This document shows, piece by piece, positions 22,541-32,701 of a stretch of 64,000 bases of DNA. The position numbers were made by a program, and so were the translations under genes. Positions within the stretch are counted from its first letter, which is position 1. The number at the start of each line of letters is the position of its first letter. This DNA is from Planktomarina temperata RCA23 (lineage in GTDB: Bacteria > Pseudomonadota > Alphaproteobacteria > Rhodobacterales > Rhodobacteraceae): positions 2,604,001 to 2,668,000 of the forward strand of contig NZ_CP003984.1 in NCBI RefSeq assembly GCF_000738435.1, read 5' to 3'. The notes beneath the pieces are model-generated. The model was not told where the DNA came from. It was given only the letters and a program-made list of their open reading frames with translations, and did no database searches.

Positions 22541-22860
22541 GTTGCCGAACAAAATCCCGCTCCAATGAATTTACAACGCTAACACTTAAGGCCCTTGGTC
22601 CGAGACGCGGGACCTTATGATGGGGGGCCCCGGTCCATGGTCCTGCGGATCAACTGTAGCGATCAGGCACAGTAACCCCTGCTACCAGTCCATTGACTTA
22701 GACAAACCATCCAACCCCAACTGAGCTCAGGCAACGCCAGTAATAGGTCGACGGTGCGTGGTTCTATGCCAACGGCCCTTGGCTCCATGTCTGTACGTTA
22801 GATATTGGGCTAGAGCAGTCATTCATTCAAATTGCAGCGAAGGGCTTCTTTGAGCCCAGT
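22541..22860. repeat. GGCC-rich interspersed repeat, copy D, upstream of the SDR gene
   Basis: Partner of copy A at 16371-16690, with the same order of blocks: AATGAATTTACAACGCTAA, GGTCCGAGACGCGGGACC, AGCGATCAGGCACAGTAACCCC, GGTGCGTGGTTC, ACGGCCCTTGGCT and TTCAAATTGCAGCGAAG. It follows an IS6-end remnant and ends about 90 bp before the SDR start codon. It is noncoding. Confidence 0.65.
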
Positions 22861-23811: not shown

Positions 23812-23960
23812 CAAACAAGATTACCCCCGAATGAATTTACAACGCTAATACTAAAGGGCTGATGTCCGAGACGCGGGGCCCTGGGATAGGGGGGGCCACT
23901 GGCGCCACTTGCAGCTGAACCGTAACGATTGGGTACAGTAACCCTTATTTAAAGGCAGCC
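23812..23960. repeat. GGCC-rich interspersed repeat, partial copy E
   Basis: CGAATGAATTTACAACGCTAATA, GAGACGCGGGGCCC and AACGATTGGGTACAGTAACCCTTA match copies A and D. The rest of 23677-24064 holds no gene that I can recognise; its last 100 bp are AT-rich and lead into the island's left attachment site. Confidence 0.55.
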
Positions 23961-24024: not shown

Positions 24025-24291
24025 TTAATTTACCAAACTTAAACAACCACTTAAATCTGGCGAATGGCGGAGGAACAGGGTGTTCATCTCCTGTAGCATC
24101 CACCAGTAATCAGCTAACTCTATGTAATCACTGGATACAGCATACCTCAGTTCACTGCAATAAGGCGCATATTGGTCAGTAATCTGGTCAGTAATGCAGA
24201 CCCCCCCTGCATGTGCCACTCCGCCCCCTAGGTGATACCGTACATAGCCCTGACCTGCGATTGGGGTTTGAGTGTCGTCAACCAACAGCAT
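24025..24291 (-). CDS. Small hypothetical ORF of the island end, copy 1, crossing the att core
   Basis: An 88-aa frame (MLLVDDTQTPIAGQGYVRYH at its start, then WWMLQEMNTLFLRH). Its first 76 codons are identical to the ORF at 31012 in the inverted arm. The frame is open for a further 28 codons upstream of the ATG, which suggests the true start was lost or is non-standard. The frame crosses the 16-bp attachment core, so its last residues are contributed by chromosomal DNA. No family is recognised. It may be a relic rather than an expressed gene. Confidence 0.35.
   Translation of the reverse strand: MLLVDDTQTPIAGQGYVRYHLGGGVAHAGGVCITDQITDQYAPYCSELRYAVSSDYIELADYWWMLQEMNTLFLRHSPDLSGCLSLVN
24065..24080 (+). 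other. Left attachment core (att copy of tRNA-Ser 3' end)
   Basis: TGGCGGAGGAACAGGG is identical to the last 16 bases of the tRNA-Ser gene including CCA (32612-32627), in the same orientation. Recombination between the two would excise the island and leave the tRNA intact. Confidence 0.85.
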
Positions 24292-24546
24292 CAGCCTGTT
24301 TAGGTCAGACTTGACGGTTTCATCTGTGAGGCAGGGTGCGGGCTGTATGTATGCCTCTGCTACTTCGTAGCGTGCTTATGCATGATGCCTGCTGTTGCTA
24401 CCCTGTATCCTAGGAAATCGTTACAGTAGCATCAGAGGGCCTCTGCATGGGCCACAGGGGGTGTGCGGGGTAAGTATACATGGCCTCTGCCAGTGATCAG
24501 CCCTGTAGTGATGTAAACCACTATTGGTTCTGTTTCGGGTTAGATG

Positions 24547-24614
24547 ACCGTTAAGGTGATCCTTATTGTGACAGGTTCCTATATAGCTCTATAGCACTTT
24601 GTCACATTAACGGT
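24547..24614. other. Nested palindrome next to the primase-helicase gene (possible origin or terminator)
   Basis: Outer arms ACCGTTAA (24547-24554) and TTAACGGT (24607-24614), middle arms TGTGACA (24567-24573) and TGTCACA (24600-24606), and an inner TATAG-CT-CTATA centre share one axis. A second copy lies at 30689-30756 in the inverted arm. It starts 17 bp after the stop codon of the primase-helicase gene. It has no T-run, so it may be a replication or protein-binding site rather than a simple terminator. Confidence 0.5.
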
Positions 24615-24630
24615 ATCACTCACTCGAAAC

Positions 24631-27600
24631 TTAAGGCTCTGGCCCGTAGAGATACTCCAGCTTTAACTCACTGATAGCACCTTCACCCCAGCCTGTTGCT
24701 AGATGCGCCAGTACTTCTGCTTCAGTCCACGGGGTGTAGAGGCTGGCGGTGGGACTGCCTGAGTAATCCTTCGGGAGGTAGAGGTGACGGTGGGTGGTCT
24801 TGCGTTCATTACCAGCTTTGAAGGTGGCTATCTGAACGGTGGTTCTGACGAGTGTGGGCAGTTGTGTTAAGAGCCGCTTTGGGTCTGAAGCTTTTGAACG
24901 ATCCGATTGGAAAAGCTTTCTGGCACTGGCCCCAGCATAGCCCAAGTCAGGCCGCATCTTTTCCAAACCCGGTGGTGTTAGAGGTAGGTCACCTGTTCTG
25001 ATCAGTTCCATTTCCAGCCTGTCAGGCATCAAGTCGTTGAACTCAATCAGATGATCTACTGGCATCTCGACAGGCAGGTTCGATAGCAAGAATACTCGTT
25101 TTTGATAATCAGCCCAAACCAACCTCAACCGGGCTATAGCTTGTACAGTCTCAGCCTCCCTGATTTGCTTTTGAACTGCTTCAATGCGGGGATCACTAAA
25201 TGATAGAACTGTCATAGCTGCTGGGGAATGAGGGCTTCGTGCAGACAGACAATACTCAACCTGATCTAAAGGTAGGTTCTCTTTATCATCATAGCTTAGT
25301 GGGTTGCCTGAGTTACCAAAGACAGCCCTCGCTTGTTGTTCTATTTCATCGATTGGTGGCTGGTTGCGGCCCGTAATAAATACAACTGATCTGTCCTCGT
25401 AAGCATTAGAACCACGCAGGGACATAAAGTGCGCTACAGCTACACCCGTATCAAGCCTAGGGTGATCTCGCAGGAACTCACATAAATCTTTGTTGCCTAC
25501 GACTAGAGGGCTTTCGCCTGCCTTCACCCATGCGTTTAGGATTGTGATCAAACTGGCTAAGTCATTGTGGCGAGGATCATAGGTTGGTTCTGACAGGTTC
25601 TCTTGTTCTGGCCCGATCTTGCTGTTCCAGAAGTTTTTACTACCAGTGCGATCATGTACCTGACTGACCATAGCTAGTTGGTGAACATCAATCCGATGAT
25701 ATTGCAGGGCTGGTAAGTAGGCGTCTGTGATTATGGGGTCAGCCGTAGCATCCAAGTAAAGCACTGGCGCAGACCGTGTCACTCGAATGGGCCTATGCTC
25801 ACAGATTACAATATCGTTCTTACGGTTGTTGTTGGGAGTTTTTCTGTTGTCGTGAACCAACTGCCCGAAGCTGTCTCTAACCTGATCCTCAATCTCCCGT
25901 GCTGCGATCTCAAGCAGTTTGGTCAGGGCCTTATATTGCTTGGCGGATCTCACATTGCGGCTTTGCGTAGTATCAGCACTGAAGGGAGTAGCTGGATTTA
26001 GCCCTTCAACCGACACGGCGTTGAACTCAAAGGCTCCAATGTCTTTGTCCCGTAGGTAGGATAGATCACCTTGATGTTTGGTTAGGCACTCCACCAGGTC
26101 AAAGCCTAAACTTGGAATACCATCCATACGAATATGCTGAGTTACATCACCCACTGGCATGGATGGCATATTGCTAACGGCAGAGGACATAAACGCCTCA
26201 TCTATTATTACCAGATCAGGCTCTGCTTGGCGTTCAAATTCATTCCTGCTCAGAAACAAGGACGCATGAGTGTAAATACGGATCGTATTCTCAACGCCCA
26301 GATCATTGCCCGATTGCCTGAACTGATCCAAATAGCTACAATTGCCAAAGAAGCTGCATTGCTCTCCTGAGGTACGGCTTAGACAGGCATTGCCATAGAT
26401 GCTGTGACCCTTTTGCTCCAAGTCCCTGACATAATCAGCCCTCTGACACATGATCGGGTTGGGGTATGAGTTCTGTTCTTCGTCCCATTTGCCGCCTGTA
26501 CGAGGATAAACGTGAATGACCGTGGCATTGATGCCTTCTAGGCTTTGTTCCCATTCGTCAGCTAGATCATGCCTTGGCACATAGACTTCTATGGTATGCT
26601 GGAACTTATCTGTCAGATACCTTTTTAGTTCGGCTATGGTTTGTTTGGTTTTACCTGTTCCCATTGTGAGGCGAACAGCGGCTCTTGGATTAGCGCCCTC
26701 AGCCAAGTTCTCGAAGAAGCCTCTTAGAATGGCATCAAGTTTTGATTGTGCTTCCACGGCTCCGACAAGCTTTGGGCGTTTCACCTTGCCTGCACCTGCT
26801 ACAAGTATCGTTCTATCTGAGCGAGATACAAAGTCATACGTACCGCTATCAAGTTCGTGCAATCTTGCTCTGGCCTTTGTTGCGGCATCAACAACTGTCC
26901 AAGGGCCACGGTCAGATACCACGCTTATATCTGCTTCCTCACAGAAACGGTTCCAAAGGGCAGCGGTCACCTCTTCTTCGCTTGGAGTGTGTTCTAGGGT
27001 GACCAACTCCTGCATGACCTGGGTGGACAGTAAGAACATCAATTGCTCCCTGTCATCAATGGCAAGACCAGTATCTGGATCACGGATAATATCGGCAGGA
27101 TCAAGCAGTCCTGATGTGCCTCGTGTTCGTTGCTTTGACGACCTTGAAGCGACAGCACTCCTGAAGGCTAAATCAGATGGCACTGTTACGGTTGATATTC
27201 CAGTGCCAGCTTTAAACAAGCCAGACCTGTTTGGATAAGGATCAACAGCACCATCGCTAAATAGAGGGTTAGCCGTCAGGTGGATTTGGATTGGATTGAA
27301 CATCCGCATGTCGACAGGACCGCCAGACAGCCACGCCTTCAGTTCATTGTCAGAACACGTGCGTTCCAACCAGAACCACAGATGCACATTAATCCCAGCT
27401 TTGATGCCCATGCTGGATGAAAAATGATACCAGCAGTCAGCAGCTTGGAACTCAACAGGAAGCTGCTGGATTGCATAAGACACCATTTCTTGTTGATCAG
27501 AAACATCACCATCCCAAGCAAGGCTATCGATGTCGATCATGCACCACTGGCGAGGTATTGCTGTGAAGTATTCCATTTTGCGAGGCACTGGGCTGTTTTT

Positions 27601-27816
27601 ACCGTCCGTCAGTGACCCTCTGATGACCGTATGCTTGGGATCATTCTCAAGTCTTTGCAGCAATGCAGACAGGCTTTGAAGATCGGACACTGGTTCTTCA
27701 GATACGTTGAACAGTTTGCCAGTGGAAAAGGGCTGTGGAGTTATATCTGTGCCATTGAAGCTTTTAACGAGGGCATGACCAGTAGCAGACTTCAGGAGTG
27801 TCATTACTTCGCTCAT
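24631..27816 (-). CDS. Putative primase (AEP-like) fused to SF2 helicase; element replication protein
   Basis: A protein of about 1061 aa with no close named match that I recognise. In the N-terminal part, CMIDIDSLAWDG gives a DxD pair (about residues 95-97) and SSSMGIKAGINVHLWF a later histidine, the pattern of archaeo-eukaryotic primase catalytic sites. From about residue 380 there is a helicase: TMGTGKTKQT (Walker A), PDLVIIDEAFMSS (Walker B) and YLDATADP (motif III-like). Between motif Ia and Walker B lie four cysteines (about 457, 478, 487 and 493), the location of the Fe-S domain in XPD/DinG-type helicases. The ATG at 27814-27816 is preferred because GGAAAGGG precedes it; the frame extends to an ATG at 27855. 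It probably replicates the element. Confidence 0.7.
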   Translation of the reverse strand: MSEVMTLLKSATGHALVKSFNGTDITPQPFSTGKLFNVSEEPVSDLQSLSALLQRLENDPKHTVIRGSLTDGKNSPVPRKMEYFTAIPRQWCMIDIDSLAWDGDVSDQQEMVSYAIQQLPVEFQAADCWYHFSSSMGIKAGINVHLWFWLERTCSDNELKAWLSGGPVDMRMFNPIQIHLTANPLFSDGAVDPYPNRSGLFKAGTGISTVTVPSDLAFRSAVASRSSKQRTRGTSGLLDPADIIRDPDTGLAIDDREQLMFLLSTQVMQELVTLEHTPSEEEVTAALWNRFCEEADISVVSDRGPWTVVDAATKARARLHELDSGTYDFVSRSDRTILVAGAGKVKRPKLVGAVEAQSKLDAILRGFFENLAEGANPRAAVRLTMGTGKTKQTIAELKRYLTDKFQHTIEVYVPRHDLADEWEQSLEGINATVIHVYPRTGGKWDEEQNSYPNPIMCQRADYVRDLEQKGHSIYGNACLSRTSGEQCSFFGNCSYLDQFRQSGNDLGVENTIRIYTHASLFLSRNEFERQAEPDLVIIDEAFMSSAVSNMPSMPVGDVTQHIRMDGIPSLGFDLVECLTKHQGDLSYLRDKDIGAFEFNAVSVEGLNPATPFSADTTQSRNVRSAKQYKALTKLLEIAAREIEDQVRDSFGQLVHDNRKTPNNNRKNDIVICEHRPIRVTRSAPVLYLDATADPIITDAYLPALQYHRIDVHQLAMVSQVHDRTGSKNFWNSKIGPEQENLSEPTYDPRHNDLASLITILNAWVKAGESPLVVGNKDLCEFLRDHPRLDTGVAVAHFMSLRGSNAYEDRSVVFITGRNQPPIDEIEQQARAVFGNSGNPLSYDDKENLPLDQVEYCLSARSPHSPAAMTVLSFSDPRIEAVQKQIREAETVQAIARLRLVWADYQKRVFLLSNLPVEMPVDHLIEFNDLMPDRLEMELIRTGDLPLTPPGLEKMRPDLGYAGASARKLFQSDRSKASDPKRLLTQLPTLVRTTVQIATFKAGNERKTTHRHLYLPKDYSGSPTASLYTPWTEAEVLAHLATGWGEGAISELKLEYLYGPEP

Positions 27817-27919
27817 TTGCATCCCTTTCCAAACTTGGTCAGAGATCCTAAACATGGAAACTGAGAAGTACCAATAAGTGATGATCTCGAAATGAGATTA
27901 TAAAAACGGTGGAAGAGCA

Positions 27920-30466
27920 ATGACAGAACTTACAATTGATCAAGCTCTACAGCAAGGTGTTGAGGCTCATAAGGCAGGACAGGTGCAAGAGGCTGATCGC
28001 CTTTATACCGCCATTTTAAAAGCCCAGCCCAAGCATCCTGATGCGAACCACAATATGGGTGTACTGGCTGTAGGCGTTGGCAAGGTTCAAGAAGCTCTGC
28101 CGTTCTTCAAGACGGCACTGGAGGCTAATCCTGCTACAGCGCAGTTCTGGCTTAGTTACATTGATGCTCTGATTAAGTTGGAGAAATTGGCTGATGCCAA
28201 GGCAGTGCTGGATCAAGCCAAGAGCAAGGGCGCTAAGGGTGATGGCTTTGATAAGCTGGAGCAACGGCTAAAGGATGCTGGACAAGAGCCTATAAAGGGG
28301 AAGCAGGTAGCTTCTGAACCACAGCTTAAGCAGCCAAATATCTTAGATACTCTCAAACTGGATCAAGCGATCAGTCTTGCAAAGAAGAAAGCAAAAGACG
28401 GCTCTCCTGAAGAAGCTAAGCGTATCTATCAGGATATTTTGACTAAGTTCCCTAAGAACAAAAGAGCCAGTGATGGGCTGAAGGGGTTAGTGGGAAGGCC
28501 TGTTGGGAAAGCCTCTAAAGTTCAGGAGCCACCACAAGCTCAGACACAAGCACTGATTAATCTCTACAGCCAAGGGCAGCTTCAGCAAGCGTTACAGGAG
28601 GCTGGGACCTTAGTTCAGCAATTCCCACAGTCAGCCATCTTGTTCAACATCCAAGGGGCTGTACTTAAAGGCCTGGGACAACTTGATGCCTCCGTTGAGG
28701 CTTATAACAAAGCTCTAGCTATCAAGCCTGATAATGCTGATGCCTACAACAACATGGGCGTCACTCTCCAAGAGCAAGGTAAGCTGGAGGAGGCTATAGA
28801 GGCTTACAACAAAGCTCTAGCTATCAAGCCTAATTATGCTGAAGCCTACTACAACATGGGCAATGCTCTCAAAGATCAAGGTAAGCTGGAAGAGGCGATA
28901 GAGGCTTACAACAAAGCTCTAGATATCAAACCTGACCACGCTGAAGCCTACAAAAACATGGGCGTTACTCTCCAAGACCAAGGTAAGCTGGAAGAGGCCA
29001 TAGAGGCATACAACAAAGCTATAATCATAAAGCCTGATAACGCAGAAGCTTACTACAACATGGGCATTGTTCTCAAAGACCAAGGCAAGCTGGAAGAGGC
29101 GATAGAGGCTTACAACAAAGCTCTAGATATCAAGCCTGATTTTGCTGAAGCCTACGGCAACATGGGTACTGCCCTTGCAGACCAAGGTAAGCTGGAAGAG
29201 GCAATAGAGGCTTACAACAAAGCTTTAAACATCAAGCCTGATTTTGCTGAAGCCTACGGCAACATGGGCATTGTCCTCAAAGACCAAGGTAAGCCGGTAG
29301 AGGCTATAGAAGCTTACAACAAGTCCCTAGCCATCAAGCCTGATTACGCTGAAGCCTACAACAACATGGGCAATGCTCTCAAAGAACAAGGTAAGCTGGA
29401 AGAGGCTATAGAGGCTTACAACAAAGCTCTATCCATCAAGCCTGGTTATGCAGAAGCACACAGGAATTTGAGTCTTGTAACTAAGTATAACTCTGACACC
29501 GCTCAGATTAGTGAAGTTAAAGCGTTGTTGCAGCGGACTGGTTTAAACGACTCAGATCGATGCAAATTGCTCTACACACATGCTAAAATGCAGGAGGATC
29601 TGGGAGATTTGAGCGACGCATTTGATAGCTACGTGGCTGGGGGGGGTCTCAGGCAGACGTTACTAGGGTATGAGTTCACCCAAGATGAGCATTTGTTTGG
29701 TCGAATTAAACAAAAAGTACCACAGTTTAAAGATGTTGCCCTCAACGTAACTGGTAAACCAATCACGCATACCCCCATCTTTATTCTTGGGATGCCCAGA
29801 TCTGGAACGACATTAGTTGAACAAATAGTTTCCTCGCACACCGAAGTCACTGGCGCAGGCGAACTGGCTTACGTATCACAGTTTGGAACAAAGTTAGTTG
29901 CAGGTGCAACAAGTCCCACTTTAAAGGCAGTGTCAGTATTCCGAGAGCGTTACCTCACAGAACTTGCTAAAAGGGCTGAGGGGCAAGCCTTTGTAACTGA
30001 TAAGATGCCTCATAACTTCAGATACATCGCCTTGATTTGTGCAGCATTTCCTGAGGCAAAGATTGTTCATGTACAGAGAAACGCTGAGGCTACATGTTGG
30101 TCAAACTTCAAGCATTACTTCGTTTCAAAAGACCTTGGGTATTCATACGACCTTCGAGATACAGTCAAATACTACGGGCTATACAAAGATCTCATGCACT
30201 TCTGGTCTCAAAGCTACAGCGATCGCATTTACAATCTCGATTACGATAAACTGACAGAAGACCAAGAGTCAGAAACACGGGGTTTGATAGAATACTTGGA
30301 GCTTAACTGGGAAGATGCATGTCTAGCTCCACAGAACAACAAGAGGTCTGTAAAGACGGCTTCTCAGCAGCAAGTTCGGCAGAAGGTTTATAAGGGCAGT
30401 TCACAAGCGTGGAGAAAGTATGAGCCATTTTTGGGTGGTGTGTTCGATGGACTTGAAGCTTATTAG
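27920..30466 (+). CDS. TPR-repeat sulfotransferase
   Basis: An 848-aa protein. Three N-terminal TPR-like units (about residues 8-105) and a linker rich in K, E and Q are followed by about nine or ten canonical 34-residue TPRs (about 205-530). A C-terminal sulfotransferase domain follows. The PAPS 5'-phosphosulfate loop is FILGMPRSGTTLVEQ (about 621-635), and KIVHVQRNAEATCWSNF supplies the 3'-phosphate-binding R and S. Such proteins transfer sulfate to cell-surface carbohydrate or protein. No signal peptide is visible. GGAAGAG precedes the ATG. It diverges from the primase-helicase gene with a 103-bp gap and is the island's only clear cargo gene. Confidence 0.88.
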   Translation: MTELTIDQALQQGVEAHKAGQVQEADRLYTAILKAQPKHPDANHNMGVLAVGVGKVQEALPFFKTALEANPATAQFWLSYIDALIKLEKLADAKAVLDQAKSKGAKGDGFDKLEQRLKDAGQEPIKGKQVASEPQLKQPNILDTLKLDQAISLAKKKAKDGSPEEAKRIYQDILTKFPKNKRASDGLKGLVGRPVGKASKVQEPPQAQTQALINLYSQGQLQQALQEAGTLVQQFPQSAILFNIQGAVLKGLGQLDASVEAYNKALAIKPDNADAYNNMGVTLQEQGKLEEAIEAYNKALAIKPNYAEAYYNMGNALKDQGKLEEAIEAYNKALDIKPDHAEAYKNMGVTLQDQGKLEEAIEAYNKAIIIKPDNAEAYYNMGIVLKDQGKLEEAIEAYNKALDIKPDFAEAYGNMGTALADQGKLEEAIEAYNKALNIKPDFAEAYGNMGIVLKDQGKPVEAIEAYNKSLAIKPDYAEAYNNMGNALKEQGKLEEAIEAYNKALSIKPGYAEAHRNLSLVTKYNSDTAQISEVKALLQRTGLNDSDRCKLLYTHAKMQEDLGDLSDAFDSYVAGGGLRQTLLGYEFTQDEHLFGRIKQKVPQFKDVALNVTGKPITHTPIFILGMPRSGTTLVEQIVSSHTEVTGAGELAYVSQFGTKLVAGATSPTLKAVSVFRERYLTELAKRAEGQAFVTDKMPHNFRYIALICAAFPEAKIVHVQRNAEATCWSNFKHYFVSKDLGYSYDLRDTVKYYGLYKDLMHFWSQSYSDRIYNLDYDKLTEDQESETRGLIEYLELNWEDACLAPQNNKRSVKTASQQQVRQKVYKGSSQAWRKYEPFLGGVFDGLEAY
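28690..29460 (+). repeat. Near-identical 102-bp tandem repeats encoding TPR units
   Basis: The unit contains AAGCTGGAAGAGGC, GAGGCTTACAACAAAGCTCT and ATCAAGCCTGA and recurs about seven and a half times. The high DNA-level identity, including third positions, indicates recent unit duplication or gene conversion, so copy number may vary between strains. Confidence 0.85.
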
Positions 30467-30471
30467 CTCGA

Positions 30472-30672
30472 ATAGCCACCTTCAAAGCTGGTAATGAACG
30501 CAAGACCACCCACCATCACCTATTCCTCCCCAAGGATTACTCAGGCAGTCCCACTACCAGCCTCTACACCCCGTGGACTGAAGCAGAAGTACTGGCGCAT
30601 CTAGCAACAGGCTGGGGTGAAGGTGCTATCAGTGAGTTAAAGCTGGAGTATCTCTACGGGCCAGAGCCTTAA
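30472..30672 (+). pseudogene. 3' fragment of a second primase-helicase gene
   Basis: An open frame of 66 codons plus stop (IATFKAGNERKTTH, then LYTPWTEAEVLAHLATGWGE, ending YLYGPEP) matches the end of the gene at 24631-27816 but differs at several mostly synonymous sites and about three residues. There is no start codon context. It comes from a related, not identical, element. Confidence 0.85.
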
Positions 30673-31011
30673 GTTTCGAGTGAGTGATACCGTTAATGTG
30701 ACAAAGTGCTATAGAGCTATATAGGAACCTGTCACAATAAGGATCACCTTAACGGTCATCTAACCCGAAACAGAACCAATAGTGGTTTACATCACCACAG
30801 CCCTTATCACTGGCAGAGGCCATATATACTTATCCCGCACACCCACTGTGGCCCATGCAGAGGCCCTCTGATGCTACTGTAACGATTTCCTAGGATACAG
30901 GGTAGCAACAGCAGGCATCATGCATAAGCACGCTACGAAGTAGCAGAGGCATACATACAGCCCGCACCCTGCCTCACAGATGAAACCGTCAAGTCTGACC
31001 TAAACAGGCTG

Positions 31012-31314
31012 ATGCTGTTGGTTGACGACACTCAAACCCCAATCGCAGGTCAGGGCTATGTACGGTATCACCTAGGGGGCGGAGTGGCACATGCAGGGGG
31101 GGTCTGCATTACTGACCAGATTACTGACCAATATGCGCCTTATTGCAGTGAACTGAGGTATGCTGTATCCAGTGATTACATAGAGTTAGCTGATTACTGG
31201 TGGATGCTACAGGAGATGAACACCCTGTTCCTCCGCCACCACTGCCCTACTAGCAGTGGCATATCCCCGATAAGCATCAGTTATAACTCATATCTTCTGG
31301 CCCGGCGCTTGTAA
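31012..31314 (+). CDS. Small hypothetical ORF of the island end, copy 2
   Basis: A 100-aa frame whose first 76 codons are identical to the ORF at 24025-24291; the tail differs because it continues across the internal att core into arm B. The perfect protein identity inside an arm that is otherwise slightly diverged may hint at selection, but no family is recognised and no ribosome site stands out. Confidence 0.35.
   Translation: MLLVDDTQTPIAGQGYVRYHLGGGVAHAGGVCITDQITDQYAPYCSELRYAVSSDYIELADYWWMLQEMNTLFLRHHCPTSSGISPISISYNSYLLARRL
31223..31238 (-). other. Internal att core in inverted orientation (complete attP-like junction)
   Basis: CCCTGTTCCTCCGCCA is the reverse complement of the cores at 24065 and 32612. 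On its left is arm A' and on its right arm B. Since arm A flanks attL and arm B flanks attR on the inside, this junction has the structure expected of the circular element's attP, embedded backwards inside the island. Confidence 0.8.
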
Positions 31315-31343
31315 TGCCGCACGTGAGTACTGACCAAATTGCT
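31223..31343 (+). repeat. 121-bp inverted repeat flanking the integrase gene, arm B (internal copy)
   Basis: Appears identical by eye to the reverse complement of 32507-32627. It includes the att core, a CCACTGC/GCAGTGG hairpin, and the region upstream of the integrase start codon. It ends within the last codon of the integrase gene, so it is the upstream region of a second, lost integrase copy. Confidence 0.88.
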
Positions 31344-32511
31344 ATTTGGCCTTCTCTAACCATTCCCGAAGCACACTCAGTGGATAGCCTGAGCCATACC
31401 CCTGCCCAACACCATCAGTCATCCATCCACCTATTTGGTCTGTCATATCAGCAGGGCATTGAACCGCTCTCAACCTGTCTCGCATAGAGTGTCTAAAGCT
31501 GTGCATCGTGCATCCTGCTGGGACATACTGTTTAAGCCATTTGTTTAAAGCAGCACTGGCAGAGTTAGCTGCTGTGGGTGATGTCATATTGTACCTTGGG
31601 AAAGCAAAGTCTGATCCATTGTCTGCCTCTACGATGCGTTTGGCAGCCCAAAGTGCTTCACCAATAAGTGGAATGTGTCGTTCACTGCTTGATGTCTTCA
31701 GGTTACGCCAAGGATGTTTGGTTACACGGACACATGGCAGATCCGTATCAAGCCCTACCAAATCCTCCTTAAGCAGCCCTGCCCCTTCAGCCAAACGCAT
31801 TCCCGTGTCAGAGATCAAAGCTATCAGCCATCTCATATCATCATCGATTGCATGACACTCAGATTGTACGTTTCTAATAGCCTCAATAGGTATTGGCTTA
31901 CGAACTAAAACCCCAGCACTGCGATCGTGATAGACTCCAACAAAAGGATTACGAATATCCAAGGCATACTCAGACAGAGCAAAGTTTATGACAGCCTTCA
32001 GATACGAAAAATTGCGGGTGATGCTGGAGCCTGTAAGTCCACGAGCAACAAGCCAATCCCTAAACTGCAGAGCATCTTGGCGGGTATAATGCGACAATGG
32101 CTTATTCCCACTAAGACCAATCAAATAGTTACACGACCGCTCAGCAGCTACACGGAAGGTCTTAGGTCGACCTTTGCCCTTATGCAAAAGATATACTTCC
32201 AAGGCATCTAAGAGGGACGGACAGTTAGTTTGAGGCTGGTTCGAGGCTACTTCTTGGCCGCTGCTCGAAGAGTCCCTAACCAACGACAAACCAATCACAT
32301 CAGACTTAGCCAATCGCATCTGGCTCCAGTACGCCTCTAGCTTGGCAGCCGTAATACTGGCTTGCACCTTAGCTTTCTGAGGGGATGTCGTACGAAGCCC
32401 TTGGACAATACGATGGTAAGAATAATGGCCTTGCAGGTCGACAGGAACACGCCTGGAGAAGTAATAATAGCCGTTACGGATGAAAGTATGGGGGATAGAT
32501 TTGGTCAGCAA
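31342..32511 (-). CDS. Tyrosine recombinase/integrase of the island
   Basis: A 389-aa phage-type integrase with an N-terminal arm-binding region (YYYFSRRVPVDLQGHY), a core-binding SAM-like domain (about 120-190), and a C-terminal catalytic domain. The catalytic residues are visible: R in LISDTGMRLAEGAGLL, K in RVTKHPWRNLKT, HSFRHS for H-x-x-R, and the nucleophile tyrosine probably in GQGYGSGYP near the end. The proposed start is a TTG at 32509-32511 inside arm B'. It is transcribed away from the adjacent tRNA-Ser gene, typical for tRNA-targeting elements. Both its flanks are inverted copies of the same 121-bp sequence. Confidence 0.92.
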   Translation of the reverse strand: MLTKSIPHTFIRNGYYYFSRRVPVDLQGHYSYHRIVQGLRTTSPQKAKVQASITAAKLEAYWSQMRLAKSDVIGLSLVRDSSSSGQEVASNQPQTNCPSLLDALEVYLLHKGKGRPKTFRVAAERSCNYLIGLSGNKPLSHYTRQDALQFRDWLVARGLTGSSITRNFSYLKAVINFALSEYALDIRNPFVGVYHDRSAGVLVRKPIPIEAIRNVQSECHAIDDDMRWLIALISDTGMRLAEGAGLLKEDLVGLDTDLPCVRVTKHPWRNLKTSSSERHIPLIGEALWAAKRIVEADNGSDFAFPRYNMTSPTAANSASAALNKWLKQYVPAGCTMHSFRHSMRDRLRAVQCPADMTDQIGGWMTDGVGQGYGSGYPLSVLREWLEKAK

Positions 32512-32627
32512 TTTGGTCAGTACTCACGTGCGGCATTACAAGCGCCGGGCCAGAAGATATGAGTTATAACTGATGCTTATCGGGGATATGCCACTGCTAG
32601 TAGGGCAGTGGTGGCGGAGGAACAGGG
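32507..32627 (-). repeat. 121-bp inverted repeat flanking the integrase gene, arm B' (tRNA side)
   Basis: Inverted partner of 31223-31343. It contains the right attachment core (32612-32627), which is also the tRNA-Ser 3' end, and the sequence upstream of the integrase start. The CCACTGC/GCAGTGG hairpin lies just downstream of the tRNA and could end its transcript. Confidence 0.88.
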
Positions 32628-32701
32628 ATTCGAACCCTGGGAGGACTTTCACCCTCGTCGGTTTTCAAGACCGGTGCATTCGACCACTCTGCCACTCCTC
32701 C
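32612..32701 (-). tRNA. tRNA-Ser (anticodon TGA)
   Basis: Ninety bases on the minus strand, beginning GGAGGAGTGGCAGAGTGG and ending in TTCCTCCG plus encoded CCA. The anticodon loop CTTGAAA gives TGA, reading UCA serine codons. The T arm is GGGTTCGAATCCC, and the long variable arm has the sequence ACGAGGGTGAAAGTCCTCCC, as in serine tRNAs. Its last 16 bases are the island attachment core, so the gene was rebuilt by the integration. Confidence 0.96.

Follow-up and report, generated by a model that had tools for sequence, protein, structure and literature searches.

We identified, in a 64,000-nucleotide stretch of Planktomarina temperata RCA23 DNA (hereafter the window), a tRNA-targeting integrative element that carries, downstream of its tyrosine integrase gene, what looks like a second attP in inverted orientation, and the same anatomy recurs beside related integrases in Alphaproteobacteria of many genera and of several families. 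From the sequences, we consider it probable that in this family the integrase inverts the element at its twin inverted attP sites; that the inversion leads to an amplification like that of the yeast 2-micron plasmid is less sure.

Results

The island at tRNA-Ser(TGA) is divided into two modules by inverted att sites

The features of the island are listed in Table 1. The core, which repeats the tRNA 3' end, occurs in direct orientation at 24065 and 32612 with identity at 16 of 16 positions, and a further copy lies in reverse at 31223, each of the three being TGGCGGAGGAACAGGG (16 bp). As the first-pass annotation had described, two pairs of arms align as inverted repeats that meet at these att cores, the A arms over 767 nt (98% identity, 13 mismatches) and the B arms over 121 nt (100% identity, no mismatch), and the segment 30472-31343, read in reverse, runs from B arm through core to A arm, which is the structure of an attP. 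We also judge its reading to be right that recombination at inverted sites would invert the modules and not excise them. Its statement that the duplicated primase codons differ mostly at synonymous sites did not hold, as the 67 codons of the duplicated primase 3' end contain three synonymous and three non-synonymous changes, with the remaining 7 of the 13 mismatches being non-coding. This primase 3' fragment forms the inner end of the internal A arm and begins 5 bp past the cargo stop codon.

Table 1. Features of the island at tRNA-Ser(TGA), in window coordinates
Feature	Position	Strand	Basis or remark
Distal core (attL)	24065..24080	+	
Distal A arm with core	24065..24831	-	contains primase 3' end
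P module (replication and cargo)	24081..31222		bounded by inverted att sites
Primase/helicase-like replication protein	24631..27855	-	
Cargo gene	27920..30466	+	TPR repeats and sulfotransferase domain
Internal A arm with core	30472..31238	+	
Putative arm-type site 1, internal A arm	31110..31118	+	shared-word analysis; position read off sequence
Putative arm-type site 2, internal A arm	31122..31130	+	12 bp from site 1
Internal inverted core (apparent second attP)	31223..31238	-	
Inverted B arm with core	31223..31343	+	extends to integrase stop codon
I module (integrase alone)	31239..32611		bounded by inverted att sites
Putative arm-type site, inverted B arm	31328..31336	+	shared-word analysis; position read off sequence
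Tyrosine integrase (DUF6538 and Phage_integrase)	31342..32511	-	start codon tRNA-proximal
B arm with core, tRNA side	32507..32627	-	contains integrase start codon
Putative arm-type integrase site TACTGACCA, B arm	32514..32522	-	shared-word analysis; position read off sequence
Core at tRNA end (attR)	32612..32627	+	tRNA-Ser(TGA) 3' end
tRNA-Ser(TGA), target gene	32612..32701	-	ARAGORN

The N-terminal part of the 24631-27855 protein matches phage DNA primase and replication-origin-binding families, and its helicase part was matched weakly. The integrase residues Arg-239, His-337, Arg-340, Trp-363, and Tyr-372, which we take to be the catalytic residues, are invariant in a 15-row alignment of related integrases. 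The TPR cargo gene (compared in the window, L031, L032, L036, and L042) is matched by its relatives mainly over the N-terminal repeat part, and its C-terminal part, which holds the sulfotransferase domain in the window copy, is unmatched or partly matched. Just outside the island, a sequence of ~130 bp at 23814-23944 recurs at 22548-22678 (73%) and resembles a stretch in L038 (80%); it is possibly a member of an intergenic repeat family.

The same genome holds three further complete elements of this anatomy, located at tRNA-Ser(GGA) (L032), tRNA-Thr(TGT) (L031, in which the integrase is 53% identical), and tRNA-Leu(CAA) (L092, in which the integrase is 41% identical and the contents differ). 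An integrase module with inverted arms is also found at tRNA-Leu(CAG) (L045). In the relative IMCC1909 (G004), the tRNA-Ser(TGA) element is present with matching flanks (L036). Separately, we noted a primase 3' fragment without a full primase at five loci (L038, L039, L041, L043, and L044), in all of them except L041 within ~1.5 kb of a TPR gene match; these lone fragments are probably remnants of such elements.

Inverted repeats follow one integrase clade

A profile built from 15 aligned related integrases gave matches at E ≤ 1e-90 in 23 of 390 genomes of the order and 10 of 385 genomes of the class (the own genome is counted in each) and, in a sample of the phylum, in 4 of 398 genomes (again with the own genome), all of which belong to the class of the window. 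We then applied a uniform test to 94 integrases, in which the region upstream of each integrase was compared with the opposite strand of the 3 kb that lie downstream and the presence of inverted repeats was the criterion. Among the 63 rows with a profile score of at least 400, inverted repeats were present in 50, absent in 9, and not judged in 4; these rows include the 15 profile-building integrases, some of which had been picked after repeats had been seen. By contrast, the 28 rows scoring below 375, 27 of which were judged, yielded inverted repeats in 0 of 27, and when the upstream region of one integrase was compared with the shuffled downstream region of another as a chance control, repeats were found in 0 of 299 comparisons. 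Three rows with scores of 375-400 were left out of the tally (L090, at a contig end; L182, with arms; and L188, truncated and without arms), and L085 was counted as arm-bearing from a separate comparison, its 344-bp arm lying beyond the 3-kb range of the test. With fewer than 250 bp of downstream sequence, rows with arms (7) were kept and rows without arms set aside; when those 7 are subtracted, the clade rows with at least 250 bp downstream show inverted repeats in 43 of 52 cases. Loci fetched later by integrase match alone (L166-L205 and L256-L258) had arms in 36 of the 41 judged (2 were not judged) and, when at least 250 bp of downstream sequence was available, in 29 of 34. The internal junction is hence not peculiar to this island but recurs clade-wide and in many genera. 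Because the structure is also found in several single-contig genomes (G000, G344, G452, G668, and G834), we rejected an assembly artefact of two collapsed elements as its general explanation.

Arms were not detected in nine judged members of the clade. The integrase matches of L082, L202_19980, and L163 are incomplete; L191 and L201, which were scored as armless, retain arms of 17-18 bp; L086 and L256 have less than 800 bp of downstream sequence; and L088 and L258 are plain exceptions. A quick tree placed every one of the 51 rows with arms in one group of 66 rows (51 with arms, 10 without, and 5 not judged) with an SH-aLRT value of 98, several long outgroup branches making finer placement unsafe. 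The absences are scattered in the tree, because arm presence needs at least 10 changes over it. In the outgroup elements L050, L100, L101, and L103, the repeats of the tRNA end are long and direct, and inverted ones are absent. The primase was also considered as the carrier of the trait and was ruled out by L047, which combines an 86% identical primase with an integrase of the outgroup and lacks inverted arms. We therefore conclude that the trait follows the integrase.

When the primase was used as a tblastn query, one scan of viral_contigs gave no relative, and no match in plasmids or phages reached 60% identity. The integrase had no match among phage records at an E-limit of 1e-30 and one match among plasmid records (E-limits of 1e-40 and 1e-60), namely the TM1040 megaplasmid. 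We also noted that the 3' end of the integrase gene is often no more than a few hundred bases away from the end of a draft contig (L187, L192, L205, L093, L180, L168, and others), as would be the case if short-read assemblies are broken by the inverted repeat.

The internal junction resembles a complete attP

As identified with ARAGORN, 14 tRNA types lie upstream of arm-bearing integrases of the clade, and the 3' end of the tRNA falls inside the inverted repeat in 35 of 37 cases (the exceptions being L172 and L200). These 35 arms measure 62-253 bp, and 28 of them are 100% identical to their inverted copies. A word that occurs twice in one arm and once in the other is what integrase arm-type sites would be expected to look like. 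Such a 9-mer, with two copies in the A arm and one in the B arm, was present in 25 of 34 elements compared with 14 of 680 shuffles, with one direction scanned, single-base shuffles as the control, and 12 named loci with no clear junction, as well as others with too little sequence, left out. In 23 of these 25 elements, the two A-arm copies have a spacing of 12 bp. The 9-mer of the window is TACTGACCA (at 31110, 31122, and 31328), and that of L031, L087, L170, and others is CGTAGACC(A). In the inverted B copy, the 9-mer is exact in 20 of the 25 elements and inexact in 5; this copy ends 4-9 bp past the 9-mer in 14, 2 bp past it in 1, and farther out in 5, and in the other 5 (L184, L191, L195, L198, and L199) it ends before the end of the 9-mer. 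Judged by these words, the internal junction has the appearance of a complete attP and carries a putative full set of integrase arm sites.

The P module lies between inverted A arms

All 11 elements in which a tRNA was identified and a distal core was found have P enclosed by inverted A arms. The A arms measure 751 bp in the window and 571 bp in L170 and, at 100% identity, 1131 bp in L174, 1231 bp in L184, and 2249 bp in L173, so that L173 has a near-whole helicase-like gene (residues 15-655 matched) at each end. In L174, which is the Ruegeria sp. TM1040 megaplasmid (NC_008043.1), the annotation has two copies of the BRO-family protein WP_011537156.1, one close to either end of the element and the two on opposite strands. 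A complete 157-amino acid gene is likewise duplicated in L184 (11258-11731 and 15857-16330), with one copy in each inverted arm; it has no Pfam, PHROG, or NCBIfam match, and no replication gene was recognized among the ORFs tested in L184. Primase/helicase-like genes are present in several P modules, that of L087 encoding PrimPol and a D5 helicase. The P modules of L170 and L173 contain a 640-amino acid family that is ATPase-like by weak matches alone, and that of L092 (14178-15584) encodes a 468-amino acid protein with no Pfam match and a weak likeness to phrog_4756 (function unknown). The cargo of L170, L173, and L174 includes type I restriction-modification genes.

A distal core was not found in 11 further rows, in seven of which (L045, L167, L182, L186, L189, L195, and L197) 31-49 kb was searched; such elements may be decayed, larger, or without P. 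A second, farther core without arms in L173 and L196 was treated as unrelated. The arms of L091 begin to match only at a distance of 106-108 bp from the core.

Arms, cores, and P orientation bear signs of recombination

In four elements with the P type of the window, the arms, measured beyond the core-proximal 150 columns, differ by 0-2.7% within an element compared with 11.7-15.6% between elements. The internal core also matches the tRNA of its own element, with no more than 2 of 16 mismatches in 33 of 36 rows (18 exact) compared with a mean of 6.9 for the tRNAs of other elements; the match is partly by construction, because rows (the above 35 and L182) were admitted only if the repeat covered at least 7 nt of the tRNA end. 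L176, L178, and L195, which between them show 4, 9, and 5 core mismatches, were counted as mismatches; we think that arm indels shifted the ungapped mapping. In genome G197, two integrases that are 96% identical (L171 and L177) occupy tRNA-Thr(TGT) and tRNA-Thr(CGT), the ends of which differ at 5 of 16 positions, and the internal core of each element equals its own tRNA end. Here, the core copies have changed jointly upon target switching, which is indicative of exchange of the internal with the terminal sites. Integrases with 94-96% identity at different tRNA genes were noted in L171/L177 (G197), L170/L182 (G487), and the window/L032, and from such pairs target switching seems to be frequent in the clade.

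Further, P lies in opposite orientations relative to the integrase gene in the window element and L032, with the breakpoints at att sites. The replication gene is directed at the internal site in seven elements (L031, L032, L170, and L084, L094, L166, and L203, the far end of the last four not being located in the available sequence), at the distal end in four (the window, L036, L087, and L174), and at both in L173. Each of three replication gene types occurs in both orientations, which were seen among relatives and not within one strain. As the A arms (mostly 0.35-2.2 kb) exceed short reads, the orientation of P in assemblies may be arbitrary or mixed. The integrase start codon was tRNA-proximal in 46 of the 47 clade rows with a tRNA on either side (16 rows had no tRNA), the exception being L083, where the start is tRNA-distal and the draft contig begins inside the repeat.

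Discussion

The usual description of an integrative element has a single attP and hence two states, in or out. A second, apparently complete inverted attP predicts a third reaction, inversion, by the same enzyme. The excised circle would carry two near-identical and apparently complete attP sites in inverted orientation, which would split it into an I arc, containing the integrase only, and a P arc, containing the cargo and usually a replication-type protein. The integrase, perhaps aided by homologous recombination, would recombine the twin sites and thereby invert P relative to I, and recombination between the two terminal cores would excise the whole element. With less confidence, we propose that inversion during replication of the circle could lead to double-rolling-circle copying, as with Flp and FRT, and that such copying would amplify the element and homogenize its arms.

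We favor inversion by the integrase as the function of the twin sites because of two precedents. In the yeast 2-micron plasmid, Flp acts on FRT sites located in 599-bp inverted repeats, which results in two isomers and can start double-rolling-circle replication (PMC3147054, PMC6594588). Like that plasmid, as it is described there, the elements have their own tyrosine recombinase, two head-to-head sites in long inverted repeats, and two unique arcs, and they may form structural isomers. The geometry of the inverted sites matches in the deduced circle only, the candidate isomers are the two orientations of P seen among relatives, and inversion and amplification are predictions from sequence. 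Unlike the 2-micron plasmid, the element is bacterial, integrates at tRNA genes, and has sites that resemble a full attP with arm sites. In the second precedent, Int-pTN3 of Thermococcus, which belongs to a tRNA-targeting element, was shown in vitro to invert DNA lying between inverted att sites (PMC5495485), a reaction that is discussed in that report as a cause of host chromosome inversions and not as the work of a built-in twin site. By analogy with the 2-micron plasmid, amplification is a likely but unproven use of inversion. The full bacterial counterpart of the 2-micron/Flp strategy, in which the integrase would invert the circle at the twin sites and double-rolling-circle copying would amplify it before re-integration, we put forward tentatively, as a possibility and not as our expectation. 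If it is true, the twin sites could also serve for the exchange of modules from one element to another.

The near-fixed polarity of the integrase gene is the main fact that inversion by the integrase leaves unexplained; free inversion of I would not predict it. This polarity, kept despite the near-identical attP sites, would be accounted for if the integrase, once the element is integrated, flips the I module until the integrase start codon adjoins the tRNA gene, and is then expressed from the tRNA promoter, such that the role of the twin attP would be to set integrase expression and to lock the integrated state. A related switch is described for ICEKp1, whose int uses a tRNA promoter when integrated and a 3'-end promoter when excised (PMC13023037). 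However, a sigma-70 consensus scan of 33 elements, a crude test, revealed no enrichment of A-arm promoters directed toward the integrase gene, and the long A arms and the two orientations of P would be left without an explanation. We regard such a latch as unlikely to be the role of the twin sites; it is compatible with integrase-driven inversion, and both can be true together.

RecA recombination alone, without the integrase, could also be the source of the isomers and of arm homogenization. The homogenized arms, as well as the remnants and losses within the clade, would suit a functionless relic, i.e. a second attP gained by accident in a founder and kept alike by gene conversion. We consider this improbable, as the structure is retained across a clade of many genera, the B copy in common cases stops shortly beyond the putative arm site, and the cores follow each tRNA.

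The twin sites might alternatively serve as a folded single-strand attP, in which the inverted copies would pair into a duplex attP and allow integration without second-strand synthesis. In the deduced circle, a single strand could base-pair with itself along the entire A-core-B repeat, and CTXphi, which also carries two inversely oriented attP copies (attP1 and attP2) on one element, is a precedent (PMC4246890). As described there, however, the CTXphi copies are 90 bp apart, are unsuitable as duplex sites, and depend on the host XerC/XerD, whereas the present elements have their own integrase and two sites that each already resemble a complete duplex attP with arm sites. In addition, no relaxase or phage morphogenesis gene was noticed, in an inspection that was not a systematic search, and folding is to our mind very improbable. 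Finally, the first-pass model of a head-to-head capture of the attP of a related element, unique to this island, is almost certainly wrong: the junction does read as the attP of the same element type, but inverted repeats flank the integrase gene in 50 of 59 judged clade members and three more complete elements lie in the same genome, which refutes a one-off event.

Inversion by the integrase at twin attP sites, the reading we prefer, sets these elements beside two further kinds of integrative element. Strand-biased integrative (SE) elements also have tyrosine recombinases and inverted terminal motifs, which are described as imperfect, 19 bp long, and terminal, with two integrases per element (PMC9345347); an internal attP does not figure in the account consulted. 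With tRNA-targeting islands, the family shares direct core repeats of the tRNA 3' end, an integrase gene beside the tRNA gene, and small cargo (e.g. type I restriction), and it differs by an extra inverted attP downstream of the integrase gene and by inverted att sites flanking both modules. Because it has two apparent attP sites instead of one, we class the element as a variant of the tRNA-targeting integrative elements. In open-access PMC full texts, our searches did not turn up any account of integrative elements that have a second, inverted attP built in. As the integrase, the tRNA target, and the cargo are ordinary, the novelty lies in the twin inverted attP.

Island finders that seek direct repeats only could misread twin-attP elements, and the twin sites may explain why draft contigs often end just past integrases of this clade. 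Through the type I restriction-modification cargo found in three of them, the elements bear on phage defence. Overall, the family would offer a natural bacterial case in which site-specific inversion coupled to replication could be tested.
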